A stretch of 64,000 nt of DNA. Source: Ruania halotolerans. GTDB lineage: Bacteria; Actinomycetota; Actinomycetes; Actinomycetales; Beutenbergiaceae. The DNA lies in contig NZ_CP088017.1 in NCBI RefSeq assembly GCF_021049285.1, positions 3,731,380 through 3,795,379 of the forward strand, read 5' to 3'. Shown one piece after another: positions 23,944 through 64,000 of the stretch. Position 1 is the first letter of the stretch. Every line of letters begins with the position of its first letter. The notes beneath the pieces were generated by a model. The model did not search any database. It was not told the origin of the DNA and saw only the letters and a program-made list of their open reading frames with translations. The translations under genes and the position numbers were made by a program.

Positions 23944-23951
23944 GAGTGCCG

Positions 23952-25238: not shown

Positions 25239-25550
25239 CGACCCATCCTGCTATGGCGCTTCGCCGCGGTCGATGCCCCAGTCTTTGTCTCGCAAGCCAC
25301 CGTCCGTGGGACCGCTGGACACGGAAGAACATCCGGGCCCGCGTGGCGCTATGTCGACGGCGCACTGACGACGGAGTGGTGGCGCACCGATTTGCCTGTT
25401 CGAGCACCTGTTCATCCATGTCCGTGCCAGCCGACGAGCAGATACCGAACGTCGTTCCCCGAGCTGACCGTAGACCACCAGCTCCGTCCGTTGCGGATAC
25501 CAACAATTTCGTGGCGGCAGCCTGCGCGCTGGATTGCCTACGCTGTTGCG
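25239..25550. other. Region without a supported gene
   Basis: About 310 bases between the divergent hydrolase-like and methyltransferase genes. Open frames exist in several phases, but none has recognisable protein similarity or a ribosome site, and GC content is below that of neighbours. The frame of the methyltransferase is open back to 25392 without family-like sequence. Promoters for both flanking genes must lie here; no clear hexamers stand out. Confidence 0.4.
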
Positions 25551-26201: not shown

Positions 26202-26276
26202 GGAACGCCAGCTGGTCACCAGAATCCACCGACTTTGATGGAGCCGGACACAGCCCAGCGAGCAATTCGGGTGGGG

Positions 26277-26810: not shown

Positions 26811-26932
26811 ATGCGAACACTAGCGACCGGCGTTGCAGTCGAGCGGAGGAGTGTCGGAACTCGAACGCAGTCGCTGGGTCCGTCGCGACGGGCACCCTCG
26901 CAGGGCTAGGAATGGGCCATCAGCGCCGTGTC

Positions 26933-47477: not shown

Positions 47478-47480
47478 ACT

Positions 47481-47512
47481 TCAATATTGACGGACTTCGA
47501 TCCAGCCGTCAA
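47481..47512 (-). promoter_or_regulatory. acr3 promoter with overlapping ArsR dyad
   Basis: On the minus strand TTGACG (47507-47512) and CAATAT (47484-47489) are 17 bases apart. The palindrome TCAATATTGA (47481-47490) covers the -10, matching the TCAA/TTGA half-sites of ArsR-family operators. The expected start point falls on or next to the acr3 ATG. Confidence 0.6.
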
Positions 47513-47682
47513 CTGTCGATCGAGACCGGACCAGAGTCGCCACAGCGCGGCGCATCGCATCGCTATCTCTCAATTTTCAACACCTTAGTATCGACATCTT
47601 TCATCTTCAGGATCGATCGCGACACTCGACGACCTCGCCATCTACTCTCGCTGCATCATCCTGTCTCCCGGAGGTGCGCACG

Positions 47683-49104
47683 GTGCCTGATAGTCGCCGA
47701 CCGAACATCGTCCTCATCCTGAGCGACGACCACGCCGCGCATGCGATGAGCTGCTACGGCAGCCAAGTGAACGAGACGCCCTCCTTGGACCGCATCGCCA
47801 CCGAGGGCGTCAGGTTTGACCGCGCCGGCTGCACCAATGCGCTCTGCGCCCCGAGCCGGGCGTCGATCCTGACCGGAACCCACAGTCACCGCAACGGGAT
47901 GATGACGCTGACCACGACCTTCGACTCGACCCAGCCAACCTTCCCCGCACTGATGCAGGCGGCCGGATATCGCACGGCACTGTTCGGCAAGTGGCACCTG
48001 GGTCACGGCGCCGGGCACGACCCCGACGGTTTCGACGAGTGGCAGATCCTGGACGGCCAGGGCGAGTACGACGATCCCGAGCTGATCAGCCCAACCGGAC
48101 GCACCCAGCACCCCGGGTATGTGACCGACGTCCTCACCGACCTCGCCCTCGATTGGCTGGATCAGCAGGACGGCACACAACCCTGGCTACTACTGCTGTG
48201 GCACAAGGCCCCGCACCGGCGCTGGTTCCCGGGTCCGCACGAGCAGCACCTCTACTCAGGCGTCACCTTCCCTGAACCGCCGACTCTCTTCGACGACTAC
48301 GGAGCACGGGCTGATGCGGCCGGCGAGGCCGCGATCCGGGTAGGCCGCGACCTGGACGAACTGGACGTGAAGACCACGATCCCGACGTTTGACACGACCC
48401 AACAGCGCACCTCCTGGTTCTACCAGCGCTACCTGCGCGACTACCTGCGCTGCGTCGCCGGGATCGACCGCACCACGGGCCGCCTCCTGGACTACCTGGA
48501 CGCCACCGAACAGACCAGCAACACCCTGGTCACCTACGCCAGCGACCAGGGCTTCTTCCTCGGCGACCACGGGTGGTTCGACAAGCGCTTCATGTACAGC
48601 GAATCGATGCGTATCCCACTCCTCATGCGCTACCCGGCCGAGATCCCACCCGGGACGGTCAGCACCGACTTCGCCCTCAACCTCGATCTGGCGCAGACGT
48701 TCCTCGACTTCGCCGGGATCGAAGCGCCGGATCGGATGCAGGGACGCAGCCTGCGGCCGCTCTGCCGTGGCGAACGCACCCCCTGGCGCACGCACGTCTA
48801 CTACCGCTACTGGGAACACCTCAAGGCCGGTGTGGGCGCCCATGTGGGCGTGCGCACTGAACGCTACGCACTCATCCATTACTACGGCGAGGCCCTCGGC
48901 GTCACCGGCGCGATCGATGAGCCGCGCCACCCGGAGTGGGAACTCTTCGACCTCGAGCCCGACCCGCTGGAGCTGCGCTCCTGCTATCACGACCCTGCCT
49001 ACGCGCAGATTCGCCACGAGTTGACGGAGTTGCTGGTGGCCTCCATCCGTGAAGCCCACGACATACCTCCGCCGAGCCTGCAGCACCTCGCCCGCGCCTC
49101 CTAG
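47683..49104 (+). CDS. Type I sulfatase
   Basis: A 473-residue sulfatase with GTG at 47683, chosen because GGAGG lies 8 bases upstream; a GTG at 47674 would overlap that site. The formylglycine precursor is Cys55 in CAPSRASILTG; metal ligands include Asp15-Asp16 in LILSDDHAAH and the later SDQGFFLGDHGWFDK. No signal peptide is seen, so it should act inside the cell on imported sulfated sugars. It needs a formylglycine-generating enzyme, not found here. It opens the + arm of the glycan locus, before a sugar importer. The divergent ars operon is unrelated. Confidence 0.92.
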   Translation: MPDSRRPNIVLILSDDHAAHAMSCYGSQVNETPSLDRIATEGVRFDRAGCTNALCAPSRASILTGTHSHRNGMMTLTTTFDSTQPTFPALMQAAGYRTALFGKWHLGHGAGHDPDGFDEWQILDGQGEYDDPELISPTGRTQHPGYVTDVLTDLALDWLDQQDGTQPWLLLLWHKAPHRRWFPGPHEQHLYSGVTFPEPPTLFDDYGARADAAGEAAIRVGRDLDELDVKTTIPTFDTTQQRTSWFYQRYLRDYLRCVAGIDRTTGRLLDYLDATEQTSNTLVTYASDQGFFLGDHGWFDKRFMYSESMRIPLLMRYPAEIPPGTVSTDFALNLDLAQTFLDFAGIEAPDRMQGRSLRPLCRGERTPWRTHVYYRYWEHLKAGVGAHVGVRTERYALIHYYGEALGVTGAIDEPRHPEWELFDLEPDPLELRSCYHDPAYAQIRHELTELLVASIREAHDIPPPSLQHLARAS

Positions 49105-49138
49105 ACAACCGACCGACGCGATGCAAAGGAGCAACACC

Positions 49139-50527
49139 ATGAGAAGAGAAGGACGACTCACCGGAACGGCGGCGGCAGCGCTGGCGTCCTGTCTGGCACT
49201 GGCCGCCTGTTCAGGTGGTGACGGCGGCAACGGCACCGATGGCGGTGCCGCTGCGGACGGTCCCCTCACGTTCTGGACACCGCACGTGCAGCCGGACCGG
49301 ATGGCCGCGCAGCAGGAGATCGCCGCGGAGTTCACCGCCGAGACGGGCATCGAGGTGGAGGTCGTGGCCATGGCGGGCGCCGACCAGGACCAGGCACTGA
49401 TTACCGGGGCAGCGTCCGGTGATGTCCCCGATGTGGTGCTGCACGCCCCTGATCTGAGCGCCTGGCAGTCCCAAGGGCTGGTCGACTCCGCTGCCGCCAC
49501 CTCGGCGATCGAGAGTCTCGGCGCGGACACGTTCAACCAGCAAGCGCTCGATTTCATCACCATCGACGACAGCTATCAAGCGATCCCGGCCGACGGCTGG
49601 GTCCACCTGATCGCCTATCGTGCGGACCTGCTTGAGGAGGCGGGTATCGCGGTACCCACATCCCTCGACGAGCTCGCCAGCGCAGCCCAGACCATCCGAG
49701 CCGACGTCGGGATCACCGGAATGGCGATGGGCACCCAGGCGGGCACGCCGTCAGCCACCGAGGCGATCGAGTCCACCTTCCAGCAGACCGGGTGTGAGCT
49801 GGTGCAGGACGGAACAGTCACCTTCGACTCCCCGGAGTGCGTCCAGGCAGCCGGGAACTTCGCCACCCTCGCCGACTCCAGCGCTGCCGGGCCGTTCGAC
49901 GTGCTCAGCGCGCGCTCGGCGTACCTCAACGGCGATGCCGCGTTCCTGCTGTTCTCCACGCACATCCTGGACGAGCTCGCCGGCCTCGATGCGGACAACC
50001 CGCTCACTTGCGACGAGTGCGCCGACAACGAGGACTTCCTGATGGAGAACACCGGGTTCATCACCGTGCTGGACGAGAGCAACCCCGCTCAGTACGGCAC
50101 GACCCTGAACTATGTGATCCCCGAAGGTGCGAACGCCGAGGGCGCGAGTGAGTTCGTGGAGTACATGCTCAGCGATGGCTACAGCGCCATGCTCGGCACT
50201 GCTCCCGAAGGGCGGATCCCGCTGCGACCAGGCAATGCCGACAACCCGACCGAGTACCTGGACGCATGGGGCACCCTGCCGATGGGTGGATCAGACCAGT
50301 CGGTCGCCGATCTGTACGGCGATGAGCTGGTGACCTCCCTCGGCGACGGCATGAACGCCGTCTCCCGCTGGGGTTTCGGGACCGAGGATGCAGTGCTCGC
50401 CGGGGAGGCGTTCGCGCAGAACACTCTCGCGGAGCAGTTGGAGGCGCTTTACTCCGGTACCGATCCTGAGCAGGTGGTGGCAGATATGGCCGCCGCGGTC
50501 CAGTCGCTGCAGGACGAGCTCGGCTAG
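49139..50527 (+). CDS. ABC sugar-binding lipoprotein
   Basis: A 462-residue extracellular solute-binding protein (family 1). An AAAGGAG site precedes the ATG at 49139. The lipoprotein signal ends in LAAC (LALAACSGGDGG), giving an acylated cysteine near residue 24. The mature part has the family fold: FWTPHVQPDRMAAQQEIAAEF near the start and EGASEFVEYMLSDGYSAMLG near the end. Two permease genes follow directly. The sugar is unknown, but the upstream sulfatase suggests a sulfated oligosaccharide. Confidence 0.92.
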   Translation: MRREGRLTGTAAAALASCLALAACSGGDGGNGTDGGAAADGPLTFWTPHVQPDRMAAQQEIAAEFTAETGIEVEVVAMAGADQDQALITGAASGDVPDVVLHAPDLSAWQSQGLVDSAAATSAIESLGADTFNQQALDFITIDDSYQAIPADGWVHLIAYRADLLEEAGIAVPTSLDELASAAQTIRADVGITGMAMGTQAGTPSATEAIESTFQQTGCELVQDGTVTFDSPECVQAAGNFATLADSSAAGPFDVLSARSAYLNGDAAFLLFSTHILDELAGLDADNPLTCDECADNEDFLMENTGFITVLDESNPAQYGTTLNYVIPEGANAEGASEFVEYMLSDGYSAMLGTAPEGRIPLRPGNADNPTEYLDAWGTLPMGGSDQSVADLYGDELVTSLGDGMNAVSRWGFGTEDAVLAGEAFAQNTLAEQLEALYSGTDPEQVVADMAAAVQSLQDELG

Positions 50528-50530
50528 GAG

Positions 50531-51490
50531 ATGTCTGACGCCCGTTCGACGAGGGTGGCGCGGGGGTCCCGGCTCAGCCGGGGCCAACGCGCCAACCTCC
50601 ATGGATATCTGCTCTCAGCACCGTCCTACCTGACCATCACCCTGGTCATTCTCATCCCGTTCTGCGCCGTGGTGGTGTTCGCGTTCGCAGAGTTCCGGCT
50701 GATCGACGTTTCTCAGATGAGCCTGGGCACGATCGACTGGTCGCTGGCGAACATGTCCGGCGCCCTGCAGTCCGGACGGTTCTGGAGTGCGCTCGGGACC
50801 ACCGCGGCCTATGCGGTTTTCACCACCATCGGTGTGATCGTCGGCGGCGTCACCGTGGCACTGGCAATGCGCAAGCCATTTCGCGGCCAGCACGTGGTCA
50901 GGGCGCTCTTCCTCGTGCCGTACGTGCTCCCGGTGATCGCCGCGGCCACGATCTGGCGCACCATGCTCAACCCCCAGTACGGGATCGTCAATGCGTTCGG
51001 AACCTCCGTACTCGGCTGGGAAGCACCGATCGCGTTCCTCACCACGAGGTCGGCGGAGCTCGGCAGCCTGTCGATCCCGGTGGCCCTGACGATGGTGATC
51101 CTGTTCGAGATCTGGAAGTCGGCTCCGTTCACGTTCTTGTTCGTGACGGCCCGCTTGCAGAACGTCCCAGCGGAGCTGGAGGACGCTGCTGCCATCGACG
51201 GCGCCAATGCCCGCCAGCGGCTCACCCACATCGTGCTGCCACAACTGCGGACCGTGGTGATGGTGCTCGTCCTACTCCGGTTCATCTGGTCGTTCCAGAA
51301 CTTCAACGACATCTACCTGCTCACCCAGGGCGCCGGCGGCACCGAGGTGATGGCCGTGCAGGTGTTCAAGCAGCTCACGGTGCGCGCCGACGTCGGCAGC
51401 GCGGCGGCATACGGCCTGTGCATGACGGCGATCCTGGCCGTGTTCGGGATCGCGTGGGCGTTGACCAACCGGCGGAAGGAGGCGCTGTGA
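50531..51490 (+). CDS. ABC sugar permease (MalF/UgpA-like)
   Basis: A 319-residue inner-membrane permease with six core helices. The EAA loop reads ELEDAAAIDGANARQRLTHIVLPQL, the contact for the ATPase. The N terminus is a basic cytoplasmic tail (RGSRLSRGQRANLHGYLLSAPSY). It starts 3 bases after the binding-protein stop and overlaps the second permease by 4 bases (GTGA). No ATPase gene is present; actinobacteria often share one MsiK-type ATPase. Confidence 0.92.
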   Translation: MSDARSTRVARGSRLSRGQRANLHGYLLSAPSYLTITLVILIPFCAVVVFAFAEFRLIDVSQMSLGTIDWSLANMSGALQSGRFWSALGTTAAYAVFTTIGVIVGGVTVALAMRKPFRGQHVVRALFLVPYVLPVIAAATIWRTMLNPQYGIVNAFGTSVLGWEAPIAFLTTRSAELGSLSIPVALTMVILFEIWKSAPFTFLFVTARLQNVPAELEDAAAIDGANARQRLTHIVLPQLRTVVMVLVLLRFIWSFQNFNDIYLLTQGAGGTEVMAVQVFKQLTVRADVGSAAAYGLCMTAILAVFGIAWALTNRRKEAL

Positions 51491-52344
51491 GCGCGGTACG
51501 AGAGCCAACCTCCATCCGGGCGCTACGGGCCACGATCATCATCATCGCCATGGTGCTCACGTGCGGGCCAGTGCTGTACGGCCTGCTGCTGTCCCTGCGG
51601 CCCTTCGCCGCCGCGCTGAACGACCCGCTCAGCATCGTGCCCAGCCCGGACGAGATCAGCTTTGACGCCTACGTGCAGGCCATGCGATCGACCGCAGACG
51701 GCGGCTACGGTCTCGGCGGGTTCCTGCTCAACTCCCTGATCCTGGCCGCCGGGACGGTGCTCGCCTCGGTCCTCGCCAGCATCCTGGGCGCATACGCCAC
51801 CGCCAGGATCCGCTTCTCCGGACGCAGCGTGGGCAACACGATCATCGTGGCCGTCTACATGTTCCCCGGCATCGTGCTGGCGGTGCCGCTGTTCGTGCTA
51901 CTCAGCCGTGCCGGACTCACCTCGAGCCTGGTCGGGCTGGTGATCGTCTATGTGGCCCTGACCGTGCCGGTGTCGCTGTATATGCTGCGCAACTACTTCA
52001 TCGCGCTACCCGCCAGCATCGAGGATGCCGCCATGATCGACGGGTGCTCCCTGCTGGGTGTGATCTGGCGGATCGTGCTGCCGATCGCCCTCCCCGGGAT
52101 CGCAGCCACGGCGATGTACATCTTCATGATCGCCTGGAACGAGTATCTGTACGCCCTGCTGTTCCTCGTTCAAGCGCGCGACCTGTGGACCGCACCGCTG
52201 GGTATCGCCCAGCTGACCGAGTTCGACACTCCGGTGACGATCCTGCTCGCCGGGTCGATCGTGGTGACGATCCCGGTGGTGCTGCTGTTCGTTCTCGCCC
52301 AGCGGCTGCTGATCAGCGGGCTGGCAACGGGAGCGGAGAAGTGA
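51487..52344 (+). CDS. ABC sugar permease (MalG/UgpE-like)
   Basis: A 285-residue permease with GTG start at 51487, coupled to the first permease by a GTGA overlap. Six helices are visible and the EAA loop is SIEDAAMIDGCSLLGVIWRIVLP. The C-terminal segment AQRLLISGLATGAEK is typical of the family, the Gly-rich end helping ATPase contact. It closes the importer genes of the + arm; a decayed murQ follows after 57 bases. Confidence 0.92.
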   Translation: MSAVREPTSIRALRATIIIIAMVLTCGPVLYGLLLSLRPFAAALNDPLSIVPSPDEISFDAYVQAMRSTADGGYGLGGFLLNSLILAAGTVLASVLASILGAYATARIRFSGRSVGNTIIVAVYMFPGIVLAVPLFVLLSRAGLTSSLVGLVIVYVALTVPVSLYMLRNYFIALPASIEDAAMIDGCSLLGVIWRIVLPIALPGIAATAMYIFMIAWNEYLYALLFLVQARDLWTAPLGIAQLTEFDTPVTILLAGSIVVTIPVVLLFVLAQRLLISGLATGAEK

Positions 52345-52401
52345 GGCCCGACTCCACCGAGGACCGCCACCCAGGCACTATCGACATCGACACCTAGGAT
52401 C

Positions 52402-52903
52402 CGGCTCACCTTCGGCGTGGACGACTTGTTCGCCGCTCATTTCCCCGGTGGCCCCAGAAGCCCTGCTGGACTCCTCGATCGCCCGGGAGGACGCCGAAGC
52501 TGCCGGGGGCGGAGGACGCCGAGACCCTCACCTCCAACGACGTGGCGATCGGCGTGACCGCCTCCGGTAGGGCCGCCTAGGTCCGCGGCGCCGTGGGCCG
52601 GCACTACCCACGAAGGTACGATCAACCCTTCTCCACAGCGCTGATGATGCGCGCGGGCGCACCTGGTCCAACCTCATGGTGCAGATGGTGGCCACCAACT
52701 CCAAGCTGGACGAACGGGCCGTACGGATCCTGACCATGGCCACGTCTCGCCCGAGCGAGGAGTGCGGAGAGGTTCTCGCCGCCTGCGAGGGCGAGCTCCC
52801 GGTCGCGCTGACGGCGATGCTCTCCGGAGCGAGCCCGGGGGCGAGCCGCCGCGCCCTGGCCGCGGGCGGCGGGGTCCGCGACGCCGTTCAGAGCCTCAGT
52901 TAG
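52402..52903 (+). pseudogene. murQ: Decayed N-acetylmuramic acid 6-phosphate etherase gene
   Basis: Pieces of MurQ follow one another in the right order but in different frames. RLTFGVDD is at 52402, SPVAPEALLDSSIAREDAEA near 52436 in another frame, and EDAETLTSNDVAIGVTASG at 52512 in a third, ended by TAG at 52578. STALMMRA comes at 52632, and GRTWSNLMVQMVATNSKLDE with the helical C terminus (from about 52655 to 52903) is in yet another frame. The N-terminal third and a central block are missing; intact MurQ is about 300 residues. The gene sits in line with the + arm importer genes. Confidence 0.8.
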
Positions 52904-53015
52904 CGTTGCGGTACCTGGCCAGCAGTTCGGTCGCGATGGCGCGCAAGTCTGGTAGAAGCCGCCAAGGAGTCCGGCCCAGTGCCAACCGGAAGAAACCACC
53001 GAGGCCTGGCCACGC

Positions 53016-54404
53016 TCATCCGTCCACCGCTTTGCGTTGGTGGCCGAATCGGAAACCGGACGTCTCGATCGACCCCACCCGGGGGTCGAGGTGCCGTCCT
53101 TTCCGAGTTGTCGTCGCAGGCTCGATCACGGGCTCCGGTTCACCGACGTCGATCATGCGCTCGGCGAGCCTTCTGCGCAGGTCGGACGTGACGGTGGCGC
53201 TCGACTCCTGACCGATCAGGTTCTCGAGCTCAGAGGGATCATTCTCCAGGTCGTACAGCGCAGATTCGACGTATCGGTGGCCATGGCGGTCGTTCCATGC
53301 ATGAGCGTCGGGGGCAGTGACGTAGTACTTCCACCGACGCGTACGGAGCCCTCGCCCGACCTCGCTCTCGCTCACCTGGAACAGGACGGCGTCGCTGCGC
53401 TCCCGCTCCAACAGCGAACTGCCCTGCATGGTGTCCGGCACTGCGATGCCCGCAGCAGCAAGAAGCGTCGGTGGCAGATCCAGCGTACTGATCGGGCCCT
53501 CGATGCGGCGCCCGCGGTGGAACCCAGGGCCGGATATCGCGAAGGGTACTCGCACGGACGCCTCGTGGCAGGACCGCTTGTACTCACCGACCCGGGTGCG
53601 GAAGTGGCAGCCATGATCGGAGGTGAAGGCCACAATGGTGTCCTCGAGGATGTGCAGACTGCGCAAGGCATCCATCAGTCGGCCCAGGCACTCGTCCACT
53701 CGTTTGATCTGCCCGTAGTAGCCACCGATCTGCTCGTGCACCTTAGAGCCATTTCCGAGAGCCGCCAGGTCAGGCGGGAGCGGACTACCGATGTACTGCT
53801 CGGCATAACCCTCGGGGGCGTCGTAGGAGTCGGTCTCGTTCTGCTGGTGAGGTTCCAGCAACGAGAGGAAGAGCAGGAACGGCTCGTCACTGTGGTCGGC
53901 CGCGTAGCGGATGGCCGCGTCGGTCAGGGCGTCGGCCCGATATCCCGGCAGTCGAACCGGGTCACCTTCATCGTCATAGACGACGGTGTTGTATGCGTCG
54001 GACGTGTGCTCAAGCACGTTGGCGGCTAACCAGTCCTGGTATCCACCGCGCTCACCTTGTTCGACCGGACCGGCAACATCGGGATCACCGAGGTGCCACT
54101 TGCCGATATAGCCCGTCGCATACCCGGCACCATGGAAACAGGCGGCCAAGGTCGGGAGTTCGGAGTCCAGCGTGAGCTGGTTGCGAAAGCAGCCGCTCGC
54201 TGATGGATACATCCCGGTCTGCATGGCCGCTCGCGCCGGCGCACAGACCGGATTCGGCGTGATCGCGGTGGCGGCATACGTGCCGCGCGTGGCGAGCCGA
54301 TCGAAGGCAGGGGTGACTCCGAGTGAGTTTCCTCCGGCACCCGTGGTGTCCCAGCGCTGTTGGTCGGTCAGGATGACCACGACACTCGGCCTGCGGGTGT
54401 TCAT
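53016..54404 (-). CDS. Type I sulfatase
   Basis: A 462-residue sulfatase from ATG 54404 (MNTRRPSVVVILTDQQRWDT). The formylglycine site is Cys54 in CAPARAAMQTG (C-x-P-x-R with Ala in place of the common Ser). Metal ligands lie in LTDQQRWD and FTSDHGCHFRTRVGEYKR. No signal peptide, so cytoplasmic. It differs clearly from the sulfatase at 47683, suggesting that two sulfate positions are removed. It overlaps the GH2 stop by 4 bases and is the last gene of the - arm. Confidence 0.92.
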   Translation of the reverse strand: MNTRRPSVVVILTDQQRWDTTGAGGNSLGVTPAFDRLATRGTYAATAITPNPVCAPARAAMQTGMYPSASGCFRNQLTLDSELPTLAACFHGAGYATGYIGKWHLGDPDVAGPVEQGERGGYQDWLAANVLEHTSDAYNTVVYDDEGDPVRLPGYRADALTDAAIRYAADHSDEPFLLFLSLLEPHQQNETDSYDAPEGYAEQYIGSPLPPDLAALGNGSKVHEQIGGYYGQIKRVDECLGRLMDALRSLHILEDTIVAFTSDHGCHFRTRVGEYKRSCHEASVRVPFAISGPGFHRGRRIEGPISTLDLPPTLLAAAGIAVPDTMQGSSLLERERSDAVLFQVSESEVGRGLRTRRWKYYVTAPDAHAWNDRHGHRYVESALYDLENDPSELENLIGQESSATVTSDLRRRLAERMIDVGEPEPVIEPATTTRKGRHLDPRVGSIETSGFRFGHQRKAVDG

Positions 54405-57343
54405 GTGTCGGCTCCACCTTCCGGTGCTCGTGCGGTTGGCTGGCTGCTGATTCGTCGGAACCGGACTTCGGTGTTCGCGATCACGATGTCGAGATGGTCC
54501 GCGCCCTGGTCCGTGAGGTGCAGCTCGGACGTACTCCCGTCGATCCACCTGATCTCGCCTGTCCCGGCGTCATCGAGGTCCTCGAACCGGTCATGCGGAA
54601 AGTCGTACCACCACGATCCGACCAGCTCAGACTTGGACCCATAGGCCTGCGGCCTGCCGACAGTACCGTCGTCTCGAAGTGAGATCTCCTGGTGGGGTGA
54701 TCGCCAGGTGCCGACCGCCTGCTGGTCGTGGGGGCCGGGCGCGACCGTGAGGTCCGCCGGCGATTCGTTGCCGTGCGTCATGTCGACCACCTGCGGGCGT
54801 TCACCTCTGATGAACTCCTGCTCCATGGAGAGCACAGGCCGGTCCTCGCCGACGACCACGGCCCTGACCACACAACTGCGGTCGAGGCGGATCGGCCCCT
54901 GATAGCGAGCCGCCAGCTTCGAAGGCTCCGAACCATCGGTGGTATACCGGATGTCGTAGGCACTGAGGTCGGGAGCCGTCCCGCCACGAAGGTCGATCCC
55001 TTCGATGACCACCGACACGTCGGTGACATCGCCGAAGTACTGGTCCCCCAGGACTGCACCGGCGATGATCTCGATGTCACCGGCCTCCTGCGTCGATGAG
55101 AAGATCCCCAGCCCGAGACCATTGAACACGCGACGCTGACTCGCCTGGTGAGCCGTGAGGTCGAGCGGGTCGCCATTGTCGAACCCCAAGCATCGGATCG
55201 GGCCGGACCAAGAGAACCACACCGTGTGACCAGCCTGCGGCACCTGAACACCTGCTCGATCCACCACTGCGAAGACGACGTGGCTGATGTCGCAGCCATC
55301 TGCGGCCAGATCGGTGTTGTCCGACGAGAGTCGCAATGCGGCTGGGGTGGCGGCGGTGGTCACCGCCGTCACCGCGCGATCCCTCGCGTCACGTCGGGCG
55401 ACCGCGCGAAGCGTGCCCGGCGAGTATGGCACCCTCCACTCCATATGGAGGTCATCGCCCACGTGCTTGACCCCGAGCGACTCGTCGTCAAGGAAGAGCT
55501 CCACCGCGTCGCAATTCGTGTAGACCCACACCGGAATCTCCACCCCCTCCAGCCCCGGGTGAGTCCAGTGCGGCAGCACGTGCACCATCGGCTCGCGGGT
55601 CCACTGGCTCTGGTAGAAGTAGAAGTGGTCCTTGGGGAACCCGCACAGATCGATGACGCCGTAGTTGTAGGTCCGCGCAGGCCAACGCGGCGATTCACCC
55701 AGGTAGTCGAAGCCCGTCCATCGGAACTCACCGCACAGGTACGGCAGGGCCCGGGTGCGCCGCCAGGAGTGCCGTGCGCAGCAGCGCACCCCGCTGTTGT
55801 CGTAGGAGGAGTTGTAGAGCACCGAGCCATCGGTGAAGAGCTCCTTCTCCGTGAGGTTCGGCACCTCCTGCCGGGGGCGGTTCCTGTCGCGCCACCACGT
55901 CCTGGTCCGGTAGAACCCACGCGTCTGCAGCGTGTGCGGCTCCTCGGTCAGCAGGAGGACACGATCTGGAAACTCCTCGTGATACGCCTCAAGCACACCA
56001 GGTACCCCGCCTTGTCCGTTGAAACCCTGGACATCCTCGATACCGGAGATGCCCCGACCACATGTCACCGGTCGCGTCGGGTCCAGCTCGTGGACGACAT
56101 CGACGAGTTCCTGTGCCTGCTTGTCGGTCTTGTCGGGAACCTCGTTGCCGATGCTCCACATGATCACGCTCGGATGGTTGCGGTCGCGCGCAATGAGGTC
56201 GGCCAGATCTCGCTGCCACCATTGCGCGAAGGACAACCCGTAGTCGTAGCGGGCCTTCGGCGTGGCCCACCCGTCGAAGGCTTCGTCGATCACCAGGAAC
56301 CCGAGTCGATCGCACAGGTCGTAGAACTCCGGCGCGGCGGGACTGTGTCCGACCCGGATAGCATTGCACCCCATGTCCTTGAGCATGCGCAGCCGGCGTA
56401 GCAGCACCGGCTCCGGCACCGCTGCGCCGACCGGTCCTCCGTCCCGGTGATGACAGACGCCCCGCAGGGTCATCGGCTTGCCGTTCAGGAAGAAGCCGTC
56501 CGTCGGGTCGAACCGGATGCTCCGCACGCCGAATGTGGTGTCCACCAGGTCGACGGCCCGCCCGCGCTCCTCCAGTGTGATCCGCAGCAGGTACAGCTCA
56601 GGGTGGTCCGGTGACCACAGCCGTGGGGATGGCAGGGCAAGGTCCACCTCGAGCATCGCCTCACCTTCGGGCGGCAAGCTCACGTCGGCTTGCCCGTGGG
56701 CGTACACGGTCCCGTCAGCGTCCATGACTTCGAAACTCCCGACGGCGTCCCTCGCCAACGCGCTCATGTTCTGTATCCGCGTACGTACGGCAATGGCCGC
56801 CGATTCAGCGGTCACGGCCGGTGTGGTGATCTGCACGCCCCAGTGGTCGATGTGGACCTCATCGGTGACAGTCAGCCAGACGTGCCGGTAGATGCCCGAT
56901 CCGGTGTACCACCGGGCGCTCGGTGCCTGCGAGTGATCCACTCGCACGGCGAGCACGTTCCGGCCCGGTCGCAGAGCGGAGGTCAGGTCGTAGGCGAACC
57001 CGATGTTCCCGCTCGGGCGATGCCCCAGATGCGCACCATTGATCCAGGCGTCGCTGCAGCGGTAGACGCCGTCAAACTCGACGACCGCCCTCGCGCCTGA
57101 GGCAAGGTCGGGCAGGTCGACCTCCCGCCGGTACCAGCCGATCCCTGTAGGCAGGAATGCCCCTTCGCGGCCTGACGGATTGTCCTCGGCGTAGCTGCCC
57201 TCGATGCTCCAGTCATGCGGGAGATCGAGCGTACGCCACCTCGTGTCGTCGTAGTCCTCGCGCTCGGCCCCGGGGGCGTCTCCGAGGTGGAAGCGCCACC
57301 CGTGATCGAGACTCTCGCGTTGCCTGGTATCACCTGTCCTCAT
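54401..57343 (-). CDS. GH2 glycoside hydrolase (beta-galactosidase/glucuronidase-like)
   Basis: A protein of about 980 residues; ATG at 57343 is used, GTG at 57352 is possible. Order, numbered from the GTG: sugar-binding jelly roll (about 15-170, DLPHDWSIEGSY), Ig-like domain, then TIM barrel with acid/base Glu404 (WSIGNEVPDK) and probable nucleophile Glu470 (LLLTEEPH). Later come GEFRWTGFDYLGE, Ig-like domains (DUF4982 type) and, near residues 800-870, a chitobiase/hexosaminidase C-terminal-like segment (IRYTTDGSEPSKLA). No signal peptide, so it probably cuts imported oligosaccharides. The exact sugar (galactoside, glucuronide or other) is open. Confidence 0.92.
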   Translation of the reverse strand: MRTGDTRQRESLDHGWRFHLGDAPGAEREDYDDTRWRTLDLPHDWSIEGSYAEDNPSGREGAFLPTGIGWYRREVDLPDLASGARAVVEFDGVYRCSDAWINGAHLGHRPSGNIGFAYDLTSALRPGRNVLAVRVDHSQAPSARWYTGSGIYRHVWLTVTDEVHIDHWGVQITTPAVTAESAAIAVRTRIQNMSALARDAVGSFEVMDADGTVYAHGQADVSLPPEGEAMLEVDLALPSPRLWSPDHPELYLLRITLEERGRAVDLVDTTFGVRSIRFDPTDGFFLNGKPMTLRGVCHHRDGGPVGAAVPEPVLLRRLRMLKDMGCNAIRVGHSPAAPEFYDLCDRLGFLVIDEAFDGWATPKARYDYGLSFAQWWQRDLADLIARDRNHPSVIMWSIGNEVPDKTDKQAQELVDVVHELDPTRPVTCGRGISGIEDVQGFNGQGGVPGVLEAYHEEFPDRVLLLTEEPHTLQTRGFYRTRTWWRDRNRPRQEVPNLTEKELFTDGSVLYNSSYDNSGVRCCARHSWRRTRALPYLCGEFRWTGFDYLGESPRWPARTYNYGVIDLCGFPKDHFYFYQSQWTREPMVHVLPHWTHPGLEGVEIPVWVYTNCDAVELFLDDESLGVKHVGDDLHMEWRVPYSPGTLRAVARRDARDRAVTAVTTAATPAALRLSSDNTDLAADGCDISHVVFAVVDRAGVQVPQAGHTVWFSWSGPIRCLGFDNGDPLDLTAHQASQRRVFNGLGLGIFSSTQEAGDIEIIAGAVLGDQYFGDVTDVSVVIEGIDLRGGTAPDLSAYDIRYTTDGSEPSKLAARYQGPIRLDRSCVVRAVVVGEDRPVLSMEQEFIRGERPQVVDMTHGNESPADLTVAPGPHDQQAVGTWRSPHQEISLRDDGTVGRPQAYGSKSELVGSWWYDFPHDRFEDLDDAGTGEIRWIDGSTSELHLTDQGADHLDIVIANTEVRFRRISSQPTARAPEGGADT

Positions 57344-57353
57344 GTGGGGCACA

Positions 57354-58526
57354 TCATCTGATCATCGGCCGGAGGGCGCGCTCGTAGGCCCCGGCATACC
57401 GCACCATCCCCAGGTCGCTGGGGTGAGAACCATCGGTCGTGGCTTCGCCATCATCACCGAGCAGCCTGTCTCCCTCGAGGTAGCGCAGGTTCTCGACACC
57501 CGCCTGCCGGAGCCGCAGGTAGGCGGCCCGCAGTTCGGCGCGTGAGCCGTCGTGCCGATCGTGGACCTCCGGGGACAGCCACGCCCGTTGGTTCGTTCGG
57601 TCCTCCACCAACAGAATCGGCGTCCCGGGGTGAGCCTCATTCAGGGCGTGCACCAGCGGCTCGGTCCGCTCGGCGACCAACCGGCTGTGCATGTTCGGTA
57701 GGCAGTCGATCACATACACCTCCGCGTCCAGTTCGGTCAGCAGGTCAACCACGGGCTCGTCCATCCGCCCCGCACCGGCGAACCCCAGGTTGACCGTGGG
57801 TACGCCCAGACGGCGCCCCACCAGTGCCGGGATCGCCATCCCGGGCCGGGATGCGCACGAGCCGTGCATGATGGAGGTGCCGTAGAACACGATCGGCTTC
57901 TCCGGCCGGGGGGCAATGGGAACGAAGGTCGCTCCCGCCTCCACCCCGATCTCCATCCGCAGGACCTGGTTGCGCAGCGGGAAGTGCATGGTGAACTCGT
58001 GCATGCCCGGGACCATGTCCTTGATCACGCCATAGTTCATGCTCAGATCGTCCTTGAGCCATGGGTGTTCCGGCCGGGCCGTCGAGACATACCGTTCCTG
58101 GCTGTTGGCATCCCGGGCATAGATGTCGACGCCACTGGATCCGGTTGCCGCCATGGTGGAGCGCGTGATCAACTCCCGACCGAGCCGGTAGCGCACCCGC
58201 ACCTGTGGCGAGTCGGTACGAAAGCGGGTGAGCATGCCTGCGCTGTCACGACTGAGATCCCACAACTGTGCCGAGACTGTTTCCTCGGCTCGCGCCGGGA
58301 AGCGGTCGTAGGACGATGCGGTGTCGTCGAAGGCTCTGCCTTCGACACCCCAGTCCGCAACGTCGTGCCAGATCATGCCGGTGGCAACACAGTCGCCGTC
58401 CTCGACGGCCCCGTATTCATCCTCACTGGGTGCCGCCGCTGCCCGGGCGGTGTCAGCAACCATCGCTGTCGCCACCCCTGCTCCGGCGGTGAGCACGCTG
58501 CGGCGCGCCACGCTTCGATACGACAT
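57354..58526 (-). CDS. Tat-exported SGNH/GDSL esterase
   Basis: A 390-residue hydrolase. The N terminus MSYRSVARRSVLTAGAGVATA is a Tat-like signal with cleavage near ARAAAA. An N-terminal beta domain (about 40-205) precedes the SGNH domain: nucleophile Ser in VFYGTSIMHGS, block II NLGFAGAGRMDEP, and Asp/His in TDGSHPSDLGM. This two-domain form (SGNH_N plus GDSL_3) includes carbohydrate acetyl esterases. It would remove acyl groups from the glycan outside the cell. It lies 15 bases after the GH30-like gene and 10 bases before the GH2 ATG. Confidence 0.88.
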   Translation of the reverse strand: MSYRSVARRSVLTAGAGVATAMVADTARAAAAPSEDEYGAVEDGDCVATGMIWHDVADWGVEGRAFDDTASSYDRFPARAEETVSAQLWDLSRDSAGMLTRFRTDSPQVRVRYRLGRELITRSTMAATGSSGVDIYARDANSQERYVSTARPEHPWLKDDLSMNYGVIKDMVPGMHEFTMHFPLRNQVLRMEIGVEAGATFVPIAPRPEKPIVFYGTSIMHGSCASRPGMAIPALVGRRLGVPTVNLGFAGAGRMDEPVVDLLTELDAEVYVIDCLPNMHSRLVAERTEPLVHALNEAHPGTPILLVEDRTNQRAWLSPEVHDRHDGSRAELRAAYLRLRQAGVENLRYLEGDRLLGDDGEATTDGSHPSDLGMVRYAGAYERALRPMIR

Positions 58527-58541
58527 GAGGTTTCCCGGCCT

Positions 58542-61500
58542 TCATCGCAGGGCCCGGCGGCGGCGCAGTACCCGGCGGTCCGTCCAGAACTGCATGGTCT
58601 CGGGCTCCAGCACACAGTCCAGCCGAGACGCGACCTGTGTTCCCAGGTCGGTGAACCGGTCATGCTCGGAGAAGCCGGCACCGGTCATGTGATGGGTGTC
58701 CCCGAGGTCGATCGAGAGCTCAGTACGTGCTGATCCGCCGTTGAGTACGGCGACCCCACGGCTCCCATCCGGTCCTTCGAACGCAAAGAGGGTCACGTCG
58801 CGATCTTTTGGGGAGTCCCCGAGGACGGAGTACCGGACCGCATCGTGCGGCATGAGTTTGACGAAGCCGACGATCGGGTGCCAGTTGATGCCGACGAATT
58901 CCCAGTGACCGACGTTGAGGTGCGCGTACCGGTCATCCGGATCACTGTCGGTGTCGGGCCGCCAGACACCCAGCGCTCGTGTGTCTGCGAAGTTGGAGTT
59001 CGTGGGCTGCAGAGCGTGCAGCCAGTACCAGGTGGGAGAGCCGTAGTACAGGAAGTGGTACAGGATGTTTTTCGCCGTGCTCACGAAGTTGGCGGCGCTT
59101 GAGCCCGAGTAGGAGAACTCCGTGTTGACCAAGGGCTTGTCGCGCAGGTTCTTCCAGGTAGCGCCTGCCTCGACAAGCGAGTCGGGGTCGTCCGAGCGGT
59201 GGCCGTTGTGCCAGGACCAGCCCTCCATCAGGGCGGACGCCTGGTCGTCGGCGGTCAGCTCGGTGATCCAGGTGGTGCCCGCGCCACTGTCGGGGCCGAA
59301 GATATGCAACTCCGGATGATCGGACCGGATCCTCGCCGCAACAGTGTTGAATGTTGTCACGTAGTCCGGCGGCGCGTAATAGCACATCGAGTACGGGCCA
59401 GTTGACTGGTTCGGTGGCCGGTTCTGCGGCTCATTCTGCAGGGACCACGAGCCCACCGGTACCCCGTGGGCCTTGAGGGTGTCGATATCGGCCGACATGG
59501 CATCGGCGATGTCACCGAGCAGCGACGAATCGTACGATGTGAGTTGTCCGCCCAAGAGGTGGTCGGTCGACTTGAAGTAGGGAGCTGGCGACCAGTACGT
59601 CGGGGTGACCGTGGCTCCGGACCGCTGGGCGGACTCGGCGATGTCGTCGATCTGACCGGGATATACGCCCTGGATGAGCCGACCCTCTTCGTCGGTCCCG
59701 CGCAGGTAGAGGCCCAGAGCCAGCCGGATGTGCCGGAAGCCCGTCAGCATCTCGTCGTACCATCGGTCCCGCTCGGCGTCAGCAAGGGACTGCGGGACAC
59801 GTTCGGTGGTGCACTGGAGCTGCCCGCCGGGCTGCAGGCAGTCGTAGAGGACCTCCACACCCATGCCCTCGATCAGCTGCTGTGGGTCCGTCCAGTCCAC
59901 CTGGTAGGTGGTGCTGGCGGTTTCGGCAGCGGGGAGAAGCCTGATCGCATCGGCGACGACGTACCCCTCACTGCTGCTCGACACGCGCACGTGATGCCCG
60001 GCGGTCGCGTCGAAGGTGAACACCCCGTCGCCGAGCCGGGCCCAGTGGCAACCGGCTCCTCGCTGGTCGATCGCGAAAGTGTCTTCGCCGCCTGCGTGGA
60101 CGACGGTCACGGGCGCGTTGCTGGCCGCGTCCTCGTCACCGTGCGGGAACCACATCCACACGCTGTACTGTCCGGTGAGTTGCGCGGGGGGAGTGTAGGT
60201 GGCGGCGCCCCCGGACCCGGCCGGAGTGACCATCGCCTCGTGCCCTCGATATCCAGGCATGACGCTGGAGGCGCCCCACTCGCCGTCGAGTTCGGCATCC
60301 GAATGACGCATGACGAACTCGATACTGGTGCCCGGGACGGCCGACGCCTGGAACGACGATCGCACCGCCGGACCGTCGTCATTCTTCCCGCGTACCCGGT
60401 AGTGGTGGACAAATCCGGCGGCTACGTCCTCATCCACATAGATCGGCTCTGTGGTCTCCGCGACCATCTCGAACGTGGCAGTCCGGCGACCGCGAGGAAT
60501 CGCACGCTCCACGAGATAAGACTCGGCGTCGTCGGTCCCATGCCACCTCAACTCGACGGCTCCGTCGCGTGCCGCCGCCACCAGTCCCTGCGGAGTGTGC
60601 AGCGGCGGGCCGGACGGACGTGCTTCCAGCACCTCGGTTTGCGGTCCTTCACCACCGGCGTTGGCTGCCGAGACAGTGAGTTTGGCGTCAATGCCGTGCG
60701 GCAGCCGCCCGACCGTGTACGTCAACCGGACGATCCGGTTGGCGACGACGACCCAGGACCCGTCATCGACTTCACGGCGCACCACGTAGCGATCGGCGCT
60801 GTCGACGTCGTCCCAGGTCAACCCGATCTGCTGGTTACCCGGCTCGATCGTGACCTCCGGTGCGTCTCTGGGTGGATCCGGCCGTTCCAACAGGAACGGC
60901 TCGCTCGGGTCGCTCTCCCCGCCTGGCCCAACGGCGGCAACCGTGTACGCGAAGTCGCTCTCGCCCTCGGTATCGACGTCCAGGAAGGATCCGCTGACTA
61001 CGCGGGCTGCAACCGTCTCGAAAGGGCCGTCGATCGAATCGCTGCGACGGACGACGTAGTGATCGACGTCGTCGGCCACGGCCCATCCGACCTCCGCCTC
61101 CCCACCGGGGATCCAGACCGCAGTGACCTCCTGCGGTACAGCGGGAACATACGGCTCGACGAACCGCGCAGCATCGGCATTGACGTGCTTCAGAGGCGTC
61201 TGCGCCTCGCTGACGACCAGTTCGATGTACTCGGAGCCGTCGGCGGTGAAAGGCAACGGGTCGCTCACCGCACGCCAGAACCCACCCGCCTCCTGCTGAT
61301 TGAGGTGGACCGTGGTCACCTGACCGGAGTGGTGGACCTTGTACGCTGCCGCTCCGGAACGGTTGGGGTCACCATCCGGCAGCCAGATCTGGACGCTGTA
61401 GTCGCCCGGTGAGGGCAGGTCCGGCCGCCAGCGAGCGACGGCCGTGGTGGTCTCGCTCCAGTTGGAAACTGCGTAGTTGCCGCCGTAGTAGCCGTTCGCA

Positions 61501-61706
61501 TACCTCGACGTCGACCAGTCAGAGGCCGGGAGGAGCTCGGCGTCCGGGTTGTCGACGATGATGTCGATCGGGCCCGAAGGGGCCGCATCGGCCGACGCGA
61601 GCGCTGTCGGCGTACTGCTCGCCACGACGACGGTGCTGGCAGCGGCAGCGGAGTACTTCAGGAATCTGCGGCGGTCGAAGCCAGCAGGGGTTGCGGAGTT
61701 TTCCAT
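58542..61706 (-). CDS. Tat-exported multi-domain GH30-like hydrolase
   Basis: A 1054-residue exported enzyme. A Tat signal (DRRRFLKYSAAAAST) is followed by a golvesin-like beta domain (about 45-190, GPIDIIVDNPDAELL), three FN3-like domains (about 190-470, with repeats of the RYVVRR and YLVERA type) and a second golvesin-like domain (about 475-615). A (beta/alpha)8 catalytic part follows (LIEGMGVEVLYD to the end). Acid/base is Glu759 in SLQNEPQNRPP and nucleophile Glu863 in LVNTEFSYSG. QLIEGMG and TYWSPAPYFKSTDHLLGG recall GH30. The substrate is unknown. The accessory domains suggest attachment to a polymer. Confidence 0.82.
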   Translation of the reverse strand: MENSATPAGFDRRRFLKYSAAAASTVVVASSTPTALASADAAPSGPIDIIVDNPDAELLPASDWSTSRYANGYYGGNYAVSNWSETTTAVARWRPDLPSPGDYSVQIWLPDGDPNRSGAAAYKVHHSGQVTTVHLNQQEAGGFWRAVSDPLPFTADGSEYIELVVSEAQTPLKHVNADAARFVEPYVPAVPQEVTAVWIPGGEAEVGWAVADDVDHYVVRRSDSIDGPFETVAARVVSGSFLDVDTEGESDFAYTVAAVGPGGESDPSEPFLLERPDPPRDAPEVTIEPGNQQIGLTWDDVDSADRYVVRREVDDGSWVVVANRIVRLTYTVGRLPHGIDAKLTVSAANAGGEGPQTEVLEARPSGPPLHTPQGLVAAARDGAVELRWHGTDDAESYLVERAIPRGRRTATFEMVAETTEPIYVDEDVAAGFVHHYRVRGKNDDGPAVRSSFQASAVPGTSIEFVMRHSDAELDGEWGASSVMPGYRGHEAMVTPAGSGGAATYTPPAQLTGQYSVWMWFPHGDEDAASNAPVTVVHAGGEDTFAIDQRGAGCHWARLGDGVFTFDATAGHHVRVSSSSEGYVVADAIRLLPAAETASTTYQVDWTDPQQLIEGMGVEVLYDCLQPGGQLQCTTERVPQSLADAERDRWYDEMLTGFRHIRLALGLYLRGTDEEGRLIQGVYPGQIDDIAESAQRSGATVTPTYWSPAPYFKSTDHLLGGQLTSYDSSLLGDIADAMSADIDTLKAHGVPVGSWSLQNEPQNRPPNQSTGPYSMCYYAPPDYVTTFNTVAARIRSDHPELHIFGPDSGAGTTWITELTADDQASALMEGWSWHNGHRSDDPDSLVEAGATWKNLRDKPLVNTEFSYSGSSAANFVSTAKNILYHFLYYGSPTWYWLHALQPTNSNFADTRALGVWRPDTDSDPDDRYAHLNVGHWEFVGINWHPIVGFVKLMPHDAVRYSVLGDSPKDRDVTLFAFEGPDGSRGVAVLNGGSARTELSIDLGDTHHMTGAGFSEHDRFTDLGTQVASRLDCVLEPETMQFWTDRRVLRRRRALR

Positions 61707-61797
61707 GGGATTCTCCCATCAGGCGGGTACGCTGACACGCACCCATCGAGGTGTGACATCTGACATGGGCAGTGAGGCGGGGACTGACCTCCCCGTC

Positions 61798-61827
61798 CCC
61801 GGGGCCGGGCTGCTACCCGGCCCCGGG
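61798..61827 (-). terminator. GC-rich hairpin after the sugar-binding protein gene
   Basis: CCCGGGGCCGGG (61798-61809) pairs perfectly with CCCGGCCCCGGG (61816-61827) over a 6-base loop, 20 bases past the stop of the binding-protein gene. It separates the importer genes from the hydrolase genes and may lower read-through so that binding protein is made in excess. Confidence 0.75.
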
Positions 61828-61846
61828 ACATCTCGGTCGCGTGGAC

Positions 61847-63355
61847 TCAGCCGAATCCGAGATCGTTGAGTTGTTCGATGCCGGCGGCGACGTACTCCTG
61901 GTGCCCGAAGTCGTTGGCGAGCGTCTCGAGGAATTCGTCATACTCGTCCATCGAGCGATCGCCGGTGACGAAGCCGATGAAGCCTTCCTGAGCGAATCGG
62001 GTCGAGTCGCCCATGCTGAATCCATCCGGCGCCAGCACCAAGCTGCCGAGCGTGGTGAACGTCGGCTGTTCCTGTGCGAAGTGGATCTCGTCCACGGCTT
62101 CGGGAAAGGTGATCGGGAGGTACTCACCTTCGTTCCGGCCCGTGAACTGGTAGATCCACATATAACTCCCCTCGTTCACGCGTGCCTGCGTCGGGACAAC
62201 CTCGCCATCCTCGAGGTTGTAGTGGACGCCCTCGATCCCGTGAGAGACGAGCGTGCGCCCCTCCTCGCTCGCGGAATAGTTGATCAGATCGAAGATCGCC
62301 TGCATCTTCTCCGGCTCGTTCGCCAGTTCGGCGGAGAATCCGTACATCCGTGCTGAGTATCCATCCCGGCTGTAGCCGCTCTCGCCATCGGGTCCGGTCG
62401 GTGGGAGCATCTGGATCCACTCGGCGTCGGGCTGGACCTCACGGTACTGGTCGACAAACTCGGGCTTGGTGAAGTTCGGCCAGCCGATGTTGATCATGCC
62501 GACGGTGCCCTGCATGGCCCGTTCGTGCGCCTGGTTGCTGTCCAAGGTCATGAAATCAGGGTCGACCGCGCCGGTTGCGACCAGTTCCTGGATCCACTCG
62601 AGGGCTTCGCGGGTGTTCGGGTCGTAGAAGCCGTGGACGACCTCACCGTCCTGCTCGTAGAAGGTTCCGCCACTCGTGCCGCCGTAGTCGGTGCCAATAC
62701 CCCCGGAACCGAATGCAGGCCATATCGGAGACCAACTCCCGCCGTCACTGGCAGCGCCAAGCCCATAGGTGTCGTCATGACCGTTGCCGTCGGGGTCATC
62801 TTCGGTGAAGGCGACCGCAACGTCGTAGAAGTCATCGATGGTCTCCGGGACGTCCAGACCTAGGTTGTCCAGCCAGTCCTTCCGGATCCAGAACGAGTTG
62901 TAGTTCCACCCGCTCCCGGTGACAGTGGCATACGTCCCTTCGTTCATCTGCCCGATCGTGACACTGTCCTCGCCCATCGCCTCTGCGTACGGGGCCAGCT
63001 CATCGTCGAGATACTCGGTCACGTCCAACAGAAGGCCCTGGTCGGAGAATTCGTTCGCCTGGACCCGGTTGAGCTGGAACATGTCTGGCAGATCACCTGC
63101 GGCCACGTCCGCTGAGAGTTGTGTGCCGTAGTCGTCGCCAGCAGTAGCCGTCATGGTGATGTCGATGTCGAGCACCTCTTCCAGTGCTTCTCTGATCGGA
63201 TCGTCCTCGGGGATCGTCACCCCCGCCTGCACGCGAATATCCAGAGCCACCGGGCCGCCGTCGCCGTCGGCGCCGTCGTCGGTCGAGCTGCATGCCACGA
63301 GCGCGAGGGCACCGACAGCAACGACAGCGGAAACTCTTCGAACAACTTTGGTCAT
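61847..63355 (-). CDS. ABC sugar-binding lipoprotein (LplA/YtcQ-like)
   Basis: A 502-residue binding protein from ATG 63355, with GGAGG upstream. The lipobox LVAC (ALVACSSTDDGADGDGG) gives an acylated cysteine near residue 22. The mature part shows the long family pattern of LplA/YtcQ proteins, which import oligosaccharides such as pectin or mannan fragments: IPEDDPIREALEEVLDIDITM near the start, WIRKDWLDNLGLDVPETIDDFY near residue 160 and SMGDSTRFAQEGFIGFVTGD near the end. It differs in family from the + arm binding protein, so the locus has two unlike importers. Confidence 0.92.
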   Translation of the reverse strand: MTKVVRRVSAVVAVGALALVACSSTDDGADGDGGPVALDIRVQAGVTIPEDDPIREALEEVLDIDITMTATAGDDYGTQLSADVAAGDLPDMFQLNRVQANEFSDQGLLLDVTEYLDDELAPYAEAMGEDSVTIGQMNEGTYATVTGSGWNYNSFWIRKDWLDNLGLDVPETIDDFYDVAVAFTEDDPDGNGHDDTYGLGAASDGGSWSPIWPAFGSGGIGTDYGGTSGGTFYEQDGEVVHGFYDPNTREALEWIQELVATGAVDPDFMTLDSNQAHERAMQGTVGMINIGWPNFTKPEFVDQYREVQPDAEWIQMLPPTGPDGESGYSRDGYSARMYGFSAELANEPEKMQAIFDLINYSASEEGRTLVSHGIEGVHYNLEDGEVVPTQARVNEGSYMWIYQFTGRNEGEYLPITFPEAVDEIHFAQEQPTFTTLGSLVLAPDGFSMGDSTRFAQEGFIGFVTGDRSMDEYDEFLETLANDFGHQEYVAAGIEQLNDLGFG

Positions 63356-63403
63356 GAGTCCTCCAATGAACAAGTGCATCCCCAGGGATGCAGGAAAGTG
63401 CGG

Positions 63404-64000
63404 TCATCCTTTGACCGAGCCGAGCGTGACTCCTTTCTGAAAATGGCGCTGAATGAACGGGTAGATCGCGACCATGGGAGCGGCAGCGACGACAACGGCC
63501 GCCATCTGCAATGTCACCGTCGGGACAGCTGCTTCGATGTTCTCCAACGACTGCGACCGTTCAAGAATGTTGTGGATCACCACCTGGAGCGGGTACAACG
63601 CACTGTCCCGCACATACAGGATCGCCTGCATATAGGTATTCCACTGCCCCACCGCGTAGAAGAGGGTGAGCGTCATCAATACTGGCACCGACAGCGGCAC
63701 CGCCAGGATCACCAGGATTCGAAACTCACCGGCACCGTCGATGCGGGCCGCTTCGAACAATTCGAGCGGGAGCCTCTCGAAGAAGGTCTTCATGACCAGG
63801 AGGTTGAACACGGCGACCGCTCCGGGAATGATCATGCCCCATATCGTGTCCACCAAGCCTGTCGCCTGTACTACCAGATAGGTGGGGATGAGGCCGGCGT
63901 TGAACAGCATCGTGAACAACACCCCCATGAGGATGACAGTCCGACCGGGCAACTTCTTGTTGGAGAGCGGATATGCCAACAGCGTGGTGAGCGCCATGTT
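63404..64000 (-). CDS. ABC sugar permease (LplC/YtcP-like, partial)
   Basis: The gene runs off the right edge; about 198 C-terminal residues are seen of an expected 290-300. The reading frame is open at the edge, so the ATG at 63997 is internal. Helices and the EAA loop (ELFEAARIDGAGEFRILVILAVPLS) are visible, and the end IYPFIQRHFQKGVTLGSVKG is the standard LplC/YtcP C terminus. Together with the LplA-like protein 48 bases downstream it belongs to an oligosaccharide importer; the partner permease should lie just outside the window. Confidence 0.92.
   Translation of the reverse strand, partial: NMALTTLLAYPLSNKKLPGRTVILMGVLFTMLFNAGLIPTYLVVQATGLVDTIWGMIIPGAVAVFNLLVMKTFFERLPLELFEAARIDGAGEFRILVILAVPLSVPVLMTLTLFYAVGQWNTYMQAILYVRDSALYPLQVVIHNILERSQSLENIEAAVPTVTLQMAAVVVAAAPMVAIYPFIQRHFQKGVTLGSVKG

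Follow-up and report, generated by a model that had tools for sequence, protein, structure and literature searches.

Polysaccharide utilization loci (PULs) of Gram-positive bacteria that rely on ATP-binding cassette (ABC) importers of the LplABC/YtePQ type cluster an exported enzyme, a lipoprotein substrate-binding protein (SBP), two permeases, a regulator, and cytoplasmic glycosidases. Here we describe a locus with the same components in Ruania halotolerans, which begins in a stretch of 64,000 nucleotides (the window; positions 3731380-3795379 of the complete 4.27-Mb actinobacterial chromosome) and continues past its end. The genes occupy an island of about 21.4 kb (window positions ~52,950 to 74,311) that is absent at the same site in the closest relative compared, genome G003. 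The island is probably a horizontally acquired Gram-positive utilization locus for a sulfated galactose-rich glycan, set beside an ancestral locus for 6-sulfated α-N-acetylglucosamine (α-GlcNAc). It differs from the described Gram-positive loci in having three cytoplasmic sulfatases, a 476-aa protein that we call U476, an actinobacterial host, and an IclR regulator in place of the two-component system. As an acquired Gram-positive glycan locus it belongs to a known kind; the gene combination and U476 are new. Sulfated-glycan loci with ABC importers are little described in actinobacteria.

Other loci resemble the island in part. Paenibacillus loci that encode an enzyme of glycoside hydrolase family 30 (GH30) carry the same importer type beside it, with permeases 55% and 60% identical and an SBP 37% identical to those of the island (importer 2). 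In Bacteroidota PULs containing SusC/SusD, GH30, and U476 (L046-L049, L051, L053, L054, L061), a GH30 of the same clade lies near U476, and L061 additionally shares an IclR regulator and a LacZ-type GH2 enzyme with the island. However, we found no SusC/SusD pair at our locus, so it is not a PUL of the Bacteroidota type; an ABC importer is present instead. U476 is a single unit without a signal here, whereas the Bacteroidota proteins are double and of lipoprotein type. Flammeovirga sp. OC4 (L062) has three sulfatases, two GH2 enzymes, and a same-clade GH30, as the island does, but it also has a GH16 enzyme and is missing U476.

An island separates two parts of an older locus

A first-pass annotation of the window had proposed a single two-armed locus: two sulfatases, two unlike ABC importers, a GH2 enzyme, a GH30 and an SGNH esterase with twin-arginine (Tat) signals, and a decayed middle. 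Open reading frames (ORFs) and Pfam and NCBIfam families bear out every one of these components. The importers are indeed unlike, the left being MalFG/UgpAE-like and the right LplBC-like with a DUF624 protein. The gene set continues past position 64000, and the right arm makes up just half of the island. The idea of one locus did not survive. Four relatives from the same genus (G002, G003, G004, and G005) have the left arm and an intact murQ-like gene but no right arm at all, which is the failure of the arms to co-occur that the annotation itself had named as evidence against its proposal. The best relatives of right-arm genes in the family reach just 37-41% identity, also contrary to a single locus. 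Because the left block occurs alone in relatives and the right-arm genes lack close family relatives, we assign the right arm to an insertion. The arms differ in history, and the original partner of the left arm is a GH89-GFO-AsnC gene set outside the window.

The gene order in G003 runs from sulfatase 1, the importer 1 SBP, and two permeases through an intact murQ-like gene to directly convergent GH89 and GFO genes, followed by AsnC. Nucleotide identity to this locus (L131) is 92% over window positions 44909-52402 and 94% over 74312-79044; the 21 kb between these flanks have no substantial match at the G003 site by nucleotide alignment. Composition deviates as well. The island has a GC content of 64.4%, compared to 67.4% in the flanks and at least 66.2% in every other 21.3-kb stretch within 124 kb, and its GC at third codon positions is lower than that of its surroundings (p 0.003). 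An empty site with contiguous flanks in a relative, together with this deviating composition, identifies the segment as a genomic island.

The decayed middle (52345-53015) is real, and it proves to be the murQ-like gene, eroded at the insertion point. The remnant (52401..52894, plus strand) aligns by blastn with the intact G003 gene at 84% over 52401-52592 and at 94% over 52596-52939, with ~183 and ~137 bp missing. One frame (52571-52900, plus strand) matches the C-terminus of MurNAc-6-phosphate etherase (PRK05441.1, E 2.1e-13). This gene is open at the same site in G002-G005 and broken only in the present genome, which encodes a second MurQ elsewhere. Next to it, at the left junction, lies a relic of the GH89 3' end (52895..52949, minus strand, ~55 bases). 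Window positions 52881-52949 match L131:13259-13327 at 62 of 69 positions, and a second copy stands at the right junction (74312-74369).

The ~21.4-kb island was inserted between the murQ-like and GH89 genes of the older locus, with its ends in or beside the GH89 3' end, and the murQ-like gene has decayed. The duplicated GH89 3' end suggests recombination at that point as the probable route. A contrary history, in which both arms are ancestral and the right one was lost from relatives such as G003, can draw on the adjacency of the genes and their common concern with sulfated glycans. We strongly disfavor it and consider it very improbable: the right arm is missing in four of four relatives with the left block, the broken murQ-like gene, duplicated GH89 end, and deviating GC content are all on the side of a gain, and the losses would have to be precise enough to leave the murQ-like gene intact. 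With insertion preferred, G003 and the present genome form a clean before-and-after pair for the acquisition of an entire catabolic island, with a neighboring gene in decay.

The older block points to 6-sulfated α-GlcNAc

The left arm opens with sulfatase 1 (47674..49104, plus strand; Pfam Sulfatase and SGSH_C), which has no signal peptide. Its closest solved relatives are the N-acetylglucosamine-6-sulfatase BT4656 (5g2v, E 1e-125) and then a mucin-desulfating sulfatase (7p24, E 4e-113), and it is thus nearest to characterized S1_11 enzymes. Orthologues in G002-G005 are 79-94% identical. Compared to the S1_11 enzymes of Bacteroides thetaiotaomicron (BT4656 and BT3177), which are its nearest solved relatives, sulfatase 1 lacks a signal peptide and sits with GH89 and an ABC importer rather than in a Sus-type PUL. 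S1_11 enzymes act on 6-sulfated GlcNAc of mucin and heparan sulfate, and a recognition triad of His and Asp/Arg as well as a region for the C2 N-acetyl group are described for them. Roughly half of the S1_11 members, however, do not have the region for N-acetyl recognition, and aquatic members recognize L-galactose (PMC10154612).

Importer 1 follows on the same strand. Its lipoprotein SBP (49049..50527; SBP_bac_8, E 5e-21) is 94% identical in G003, 88% in G004, and 76-79% in G002 and G005. In G004 the SBP gene is split over two frames (L134:9552-10951), and the remaining older block is intact there. Both permeases carry BPD_transp_1 domains; the first (50531..51490) is MalF/UgpA-like and 98% identical in G003, and the second (51418..52344) is UgpE/MalG-like and 97% identical. 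Downstream of the island, all within 15 kb past position 64000, lie GH89 (74313-76517, at the island's far end), a GFO/IDH oxidoreductase, and an AsnC/Lrp regulator.

The S1_11-like sulfatase and GH89 point to α-GlcNAc with a 6-sulfate as the target of this block. Most likely, the older system, comprising this sulfatase, importer 1, the MurQ-like etherase, the GH89 α-N-acetylglucosaminidase, the GFO/IDH oxidoreductase, and the AsnC/Lrp regulator, would take up small 6-sulfated α-GlcNAc oligosaccharides and cleave them in the cytoplasm.

The island encodes a divergent GH30 and its own importer

The exported enzyme of the island is a 1054-aa GH30 protein (58542..61706, minus strand) decorated with Golvesin (Golvesin_C, E 2e-47) and Fn3 domains. 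As the first reading of the sequence had indicated, twin-arginine starts occur on this protein (RRRFLK) and on the SGNH esterase (RRSVLT), and none on the sulfatases or GH2; the Pfam TAT_signal match to the GH30 protein is weak (E 0.007, under the family cut-off). Profile searches with the catalytic domain (58542-59909) recovered AcXbh30A (E 2.5e-15) and the xylanase 1nof (E 1.9e-11), and Glyco_hydro_30C scored E 0.0012, under its cut-off. Identity to nearly all solved GH30 structures and subfamilies is about 15-18%. The AlphaFold model (pLDDT 86) has a TIM barrel with a side β-sandwich and aligns 350-400 residues with GH30 structures at Z 30-35 and rmsd 2.6-3.1. Across 26 sequences, E160 (in QNEP) is invariant and E264 nearly so; by analogy, these would be the catalytic residues. 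Profiles and model agree on a divergent but sound GH30 domain.

We collected 34 relatives of this GH30 at 29-39% identity from Actinomycetota, Bacteroidota, Acidobacteriota, Paenibacillus, Chloroflexi, and planctomycete and verrucomicrobial metagenome-assembled genomes, and one further relative on an Embleya replicon. The catalytic domain has no relative in the family genomes, where matches covered the Golvesin and Fn3 parts only. A genome scan with the full 1054-aa protein returned no match because most search patterns fell within the linker and Golvesin domains.

Within the window, the other island genes share the minus strand. Sulfatase 2 (53016..54404; Pfam Sulfatase, E 3e-50) has no signal peptide; its start is probably 54404, the longest ORF running from 54548, and no PDB match is strong (best 2qzu, E 3e-37). 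Beside it is a GH2 enzyme with DUF4982 (54401..57352) of the GalA/GalB-like β-galactosidase type, also without a signal peptide, which matches GalB at E 8e-209, yet below the GalB cut-off; its best PDB match is 3gm8 (E 7e-210), followed by β-galactosidases. The Tat-type SGNH esterase (57354..58526; Pfam GxDLY, E 6e-61, and Lipase_GDSL_3, E 2e-35) has relatives at 39-41% in G002, G005, and G007. Importer 2 comprises a lipoprotein SBP (61847..63379; SBP_bac_1, E 6e-21) and an LplC-type permease (63404..64297; BPD_transp_1) that crosses the window end at 64000. The best relatives of this SBP and of the GH2 enzyme among 24 family genomes are at most 38% identical. Beyond LplC, up to 74224, lie an LplB permease, a DUF624 protein, the IclR regulator, U476, a LacZ-type GH2, and two sulfatases, one of which (sulfatase 4) is nearest to a carrageenan galactose-4-sulfatase.

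Both window sulfatases contain a C-x-P-x-R motif, and all sulfatases named here combine a Sulfatase domain with the C-x-[PA]-x-R formylglycine motif, placing them in the S1 family. The chromosome holds 18 sulfatase-family matches, and a formylglycine-generating enzyme for sulfatase maturation is encoded in the genome. Rfam gave no match, promoter and terminator scans performed no better than on shuffles, and the viral contigs searched contained no match.

U476 accompanies the GH30 clade across phyla

U476, encoded beyond position 64000, matches nothing in Pfam, NCBIfam, or the PDB sequences, profile search included. Ten of the 34 loci have it no more than 10 kb from the GH30 gene, and in Bacteroidota it is usually the next gene directly after SusC, SusD, and GH30. 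The pair is found repeatedly in loci of Bacteroidota and Acidobacteriota, in many cases accompanied by galactosidases and sulfatases. U476 occurs in 15 of 31 GH30-carrier genomes, which were drawn by two sequence patterns and are no random sample. By contrast, among 119 relatives from the order, eight carry U476, all from the same family and counting the present genome; 395 other Actinomycetota yielded no credible U476, bar one marginal broken match. In a Spirosoma record, a relative directly behind a SusC/SusD pair is labeled just "hypothetical protein." A FAD-dependent oxidoreductase (PF12831) is another frequent neighbor of the U476/GH30 module. One such oxidoreductase (L010:17902-19337) is divided between two ORFs that overlap by 4 bases; relatives of the genome that holds it pair proteins of this type with U476.

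Dozens of residues, many of them polar, are invariant across ten aligned U476 sequences. Elsewhere the protein looks like a lipoprotein or a secreted protein, and here it has no signal; its localization would thus track the site of oligosaccharide processing, which suggests an enzymatic role rather than one in binding at the surface. We tentatively propose that U476 may represent an undescribed, perhaps propeller-like family of carbohydrate-active enzymes that in several phyla acts alongside a distinct GH30 clade on glycans rich in galactose and often sulfated, as an extracytoplasmic double-unit lipoprotein in Bacteroidota and an intracellular single unit in this actinobacterium. Two points temper this proposal. 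The structural model of U476 is poor (pLDDT 61); propellers are the commonest matches (Z 12-13), with many unrelated ones tied. In G002 (L104:7707-16206) the protein is encoded in a setting unlike that of the GH30 module, an operon with GntR, a NanA/DHDPS-like aldolase, a BNR sialidase-like protein, and an ABC importer; its action is therefore not necessarily confined to galactans.

We also looked for a solved relative of U476. Profiles gave none, and Foldseek TM-scores of 0.2-0.3 over the whole poor model were not used.

Searches of open-access literature returned no description, in titles and abstracts, of the GH30-U476 pairing or of actinobacterial sulfated-glycan loci. The cross-phylum pair makes one unannotated protein an immediate candidate for enzyme discovery.

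A sulfated galactose-rich glycan is the most likely substrate

The first-pass annotation had envisaged cutting and deacylation outside the cell, then import, then desulfation and further cleavage inside. This outline fits the export signals and the presence of a formylglycine-generating enzyme; only its single-locus frame has to go. In the island, the GH30 would cut the polymer outside the cell, the SGNH esterase would strip acyl groups, and the LplBC-type importer with its lipoprotein would bring in oligosaccharides. Three cytoplasmic sulfatases and two GH2 enzymes would finish them, U476, cytoplasmic here, would act on the imported material, and IclR would control the set.

As the target we favor a glycan that is sulfated and rich in galactose, the most likely candidate. 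This assignment is drawn from the galactosidase and sulfatase neighbors of related modules, the two β-galactosidase-type GH2 enzymes here, and the resemblance of sulfatase 4 to a carrageenan enzyme. The neighbors include GH36 and GH97 (L046); GH2, GH16, and sulfatases (L062); GH42 (L109); GH110-type (GLAA-B) barrels with GH2 and a sulfatase (L116); and a sulfatase with GH2 (L112). Gene content does not separate carrageenan- or agar-like targets from arabinogalactan-like ones. On the second option, the island would serve another sulfated plant or algal glycan, such as a type II galactan of sulfated arabinogalactan-protein, with the GH30 as an endo-β-galactanase and U476 as a debranching enzyme. 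Bacteroides plebeius uses sulfated arabinogalactan-protein with a sulfatase and GH145 enzymes (PMC8406133), and GH30 relatives are found in soil and rumen-type bacteria, but the island ORFs revealed no arabinofuranosidase, rhamnosidase, or glucuronidase. We regard this option as rather unlikely, though it deserves more weight than a host-type glycan.

A host-type pathway would unite both blocks on keratan sulfate or sulfated mucin: S1_11 would remove GlcNAc-6-sulfate, the GH2 enzymes β-galactose, and GH89 α-GlcNAc caps, selection for shared use having joined the blocks. All three enzyme types are of mucin or keratan kind, S1_11 acts on such 6-sulfated GlcNAc in mucin and heparan sulfate (PMC10154612), and the blocks are now adjacent. 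Yet four relatives keep the left block without the right one, the island is equipped with a separate importer and regulator, Pfam and family scans of its ORFs detected no hexosaminidase, fucosidase, or sialidase, and relatives of its genes sit in galactan-like loci. We judge the host-type pathway improbable. Heparan sulfate was also considered as an island target and rejected, as no lyase or uronidase was found in the island.

Against an acquired sulfated-galactan locus, which we still favor, stand several observations. The window contains no tRNA, and Pfam reveals no integrase or other mobility gene among the island ORFs; we therefore do not class the island as an integrative mobile element. 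Sulfatases 2 and 3 are not assignable to a subfamily. In some GH30 carriers the neighborhood includes GH95 or GH3 but no sulfatase. Finally, because galactosidases turn up in many glycan loci, the galactose theme is no more than suggestive.

Neighboring loci

Three further features were noted. Beside a DnaK gene, 3.2 kb (window 23747-26933) hold only short ORFs, one methyltransferase-like, with no confident long coding sequence and no RNA family match. Directly left of the older block, an arsenic-type operon (window 44858-47477), conserved in G003 and G004, encodes a transporter, a 352-aa fused ArsR/arsenate-reductase-type (low-molecular-weight phosphatase, LMWP) protein, and a second LMWP-type protein. 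About 50 kb from the studied locus, just left of the window (L009:6199-19268, window -13801 to -732), is a further glycan cluster with an SBP and two permeases, a DHDPS/NanA-like aldolase, a BNR-type sialidase-like protein, two sulfatases, and a Tat β-helix protein.

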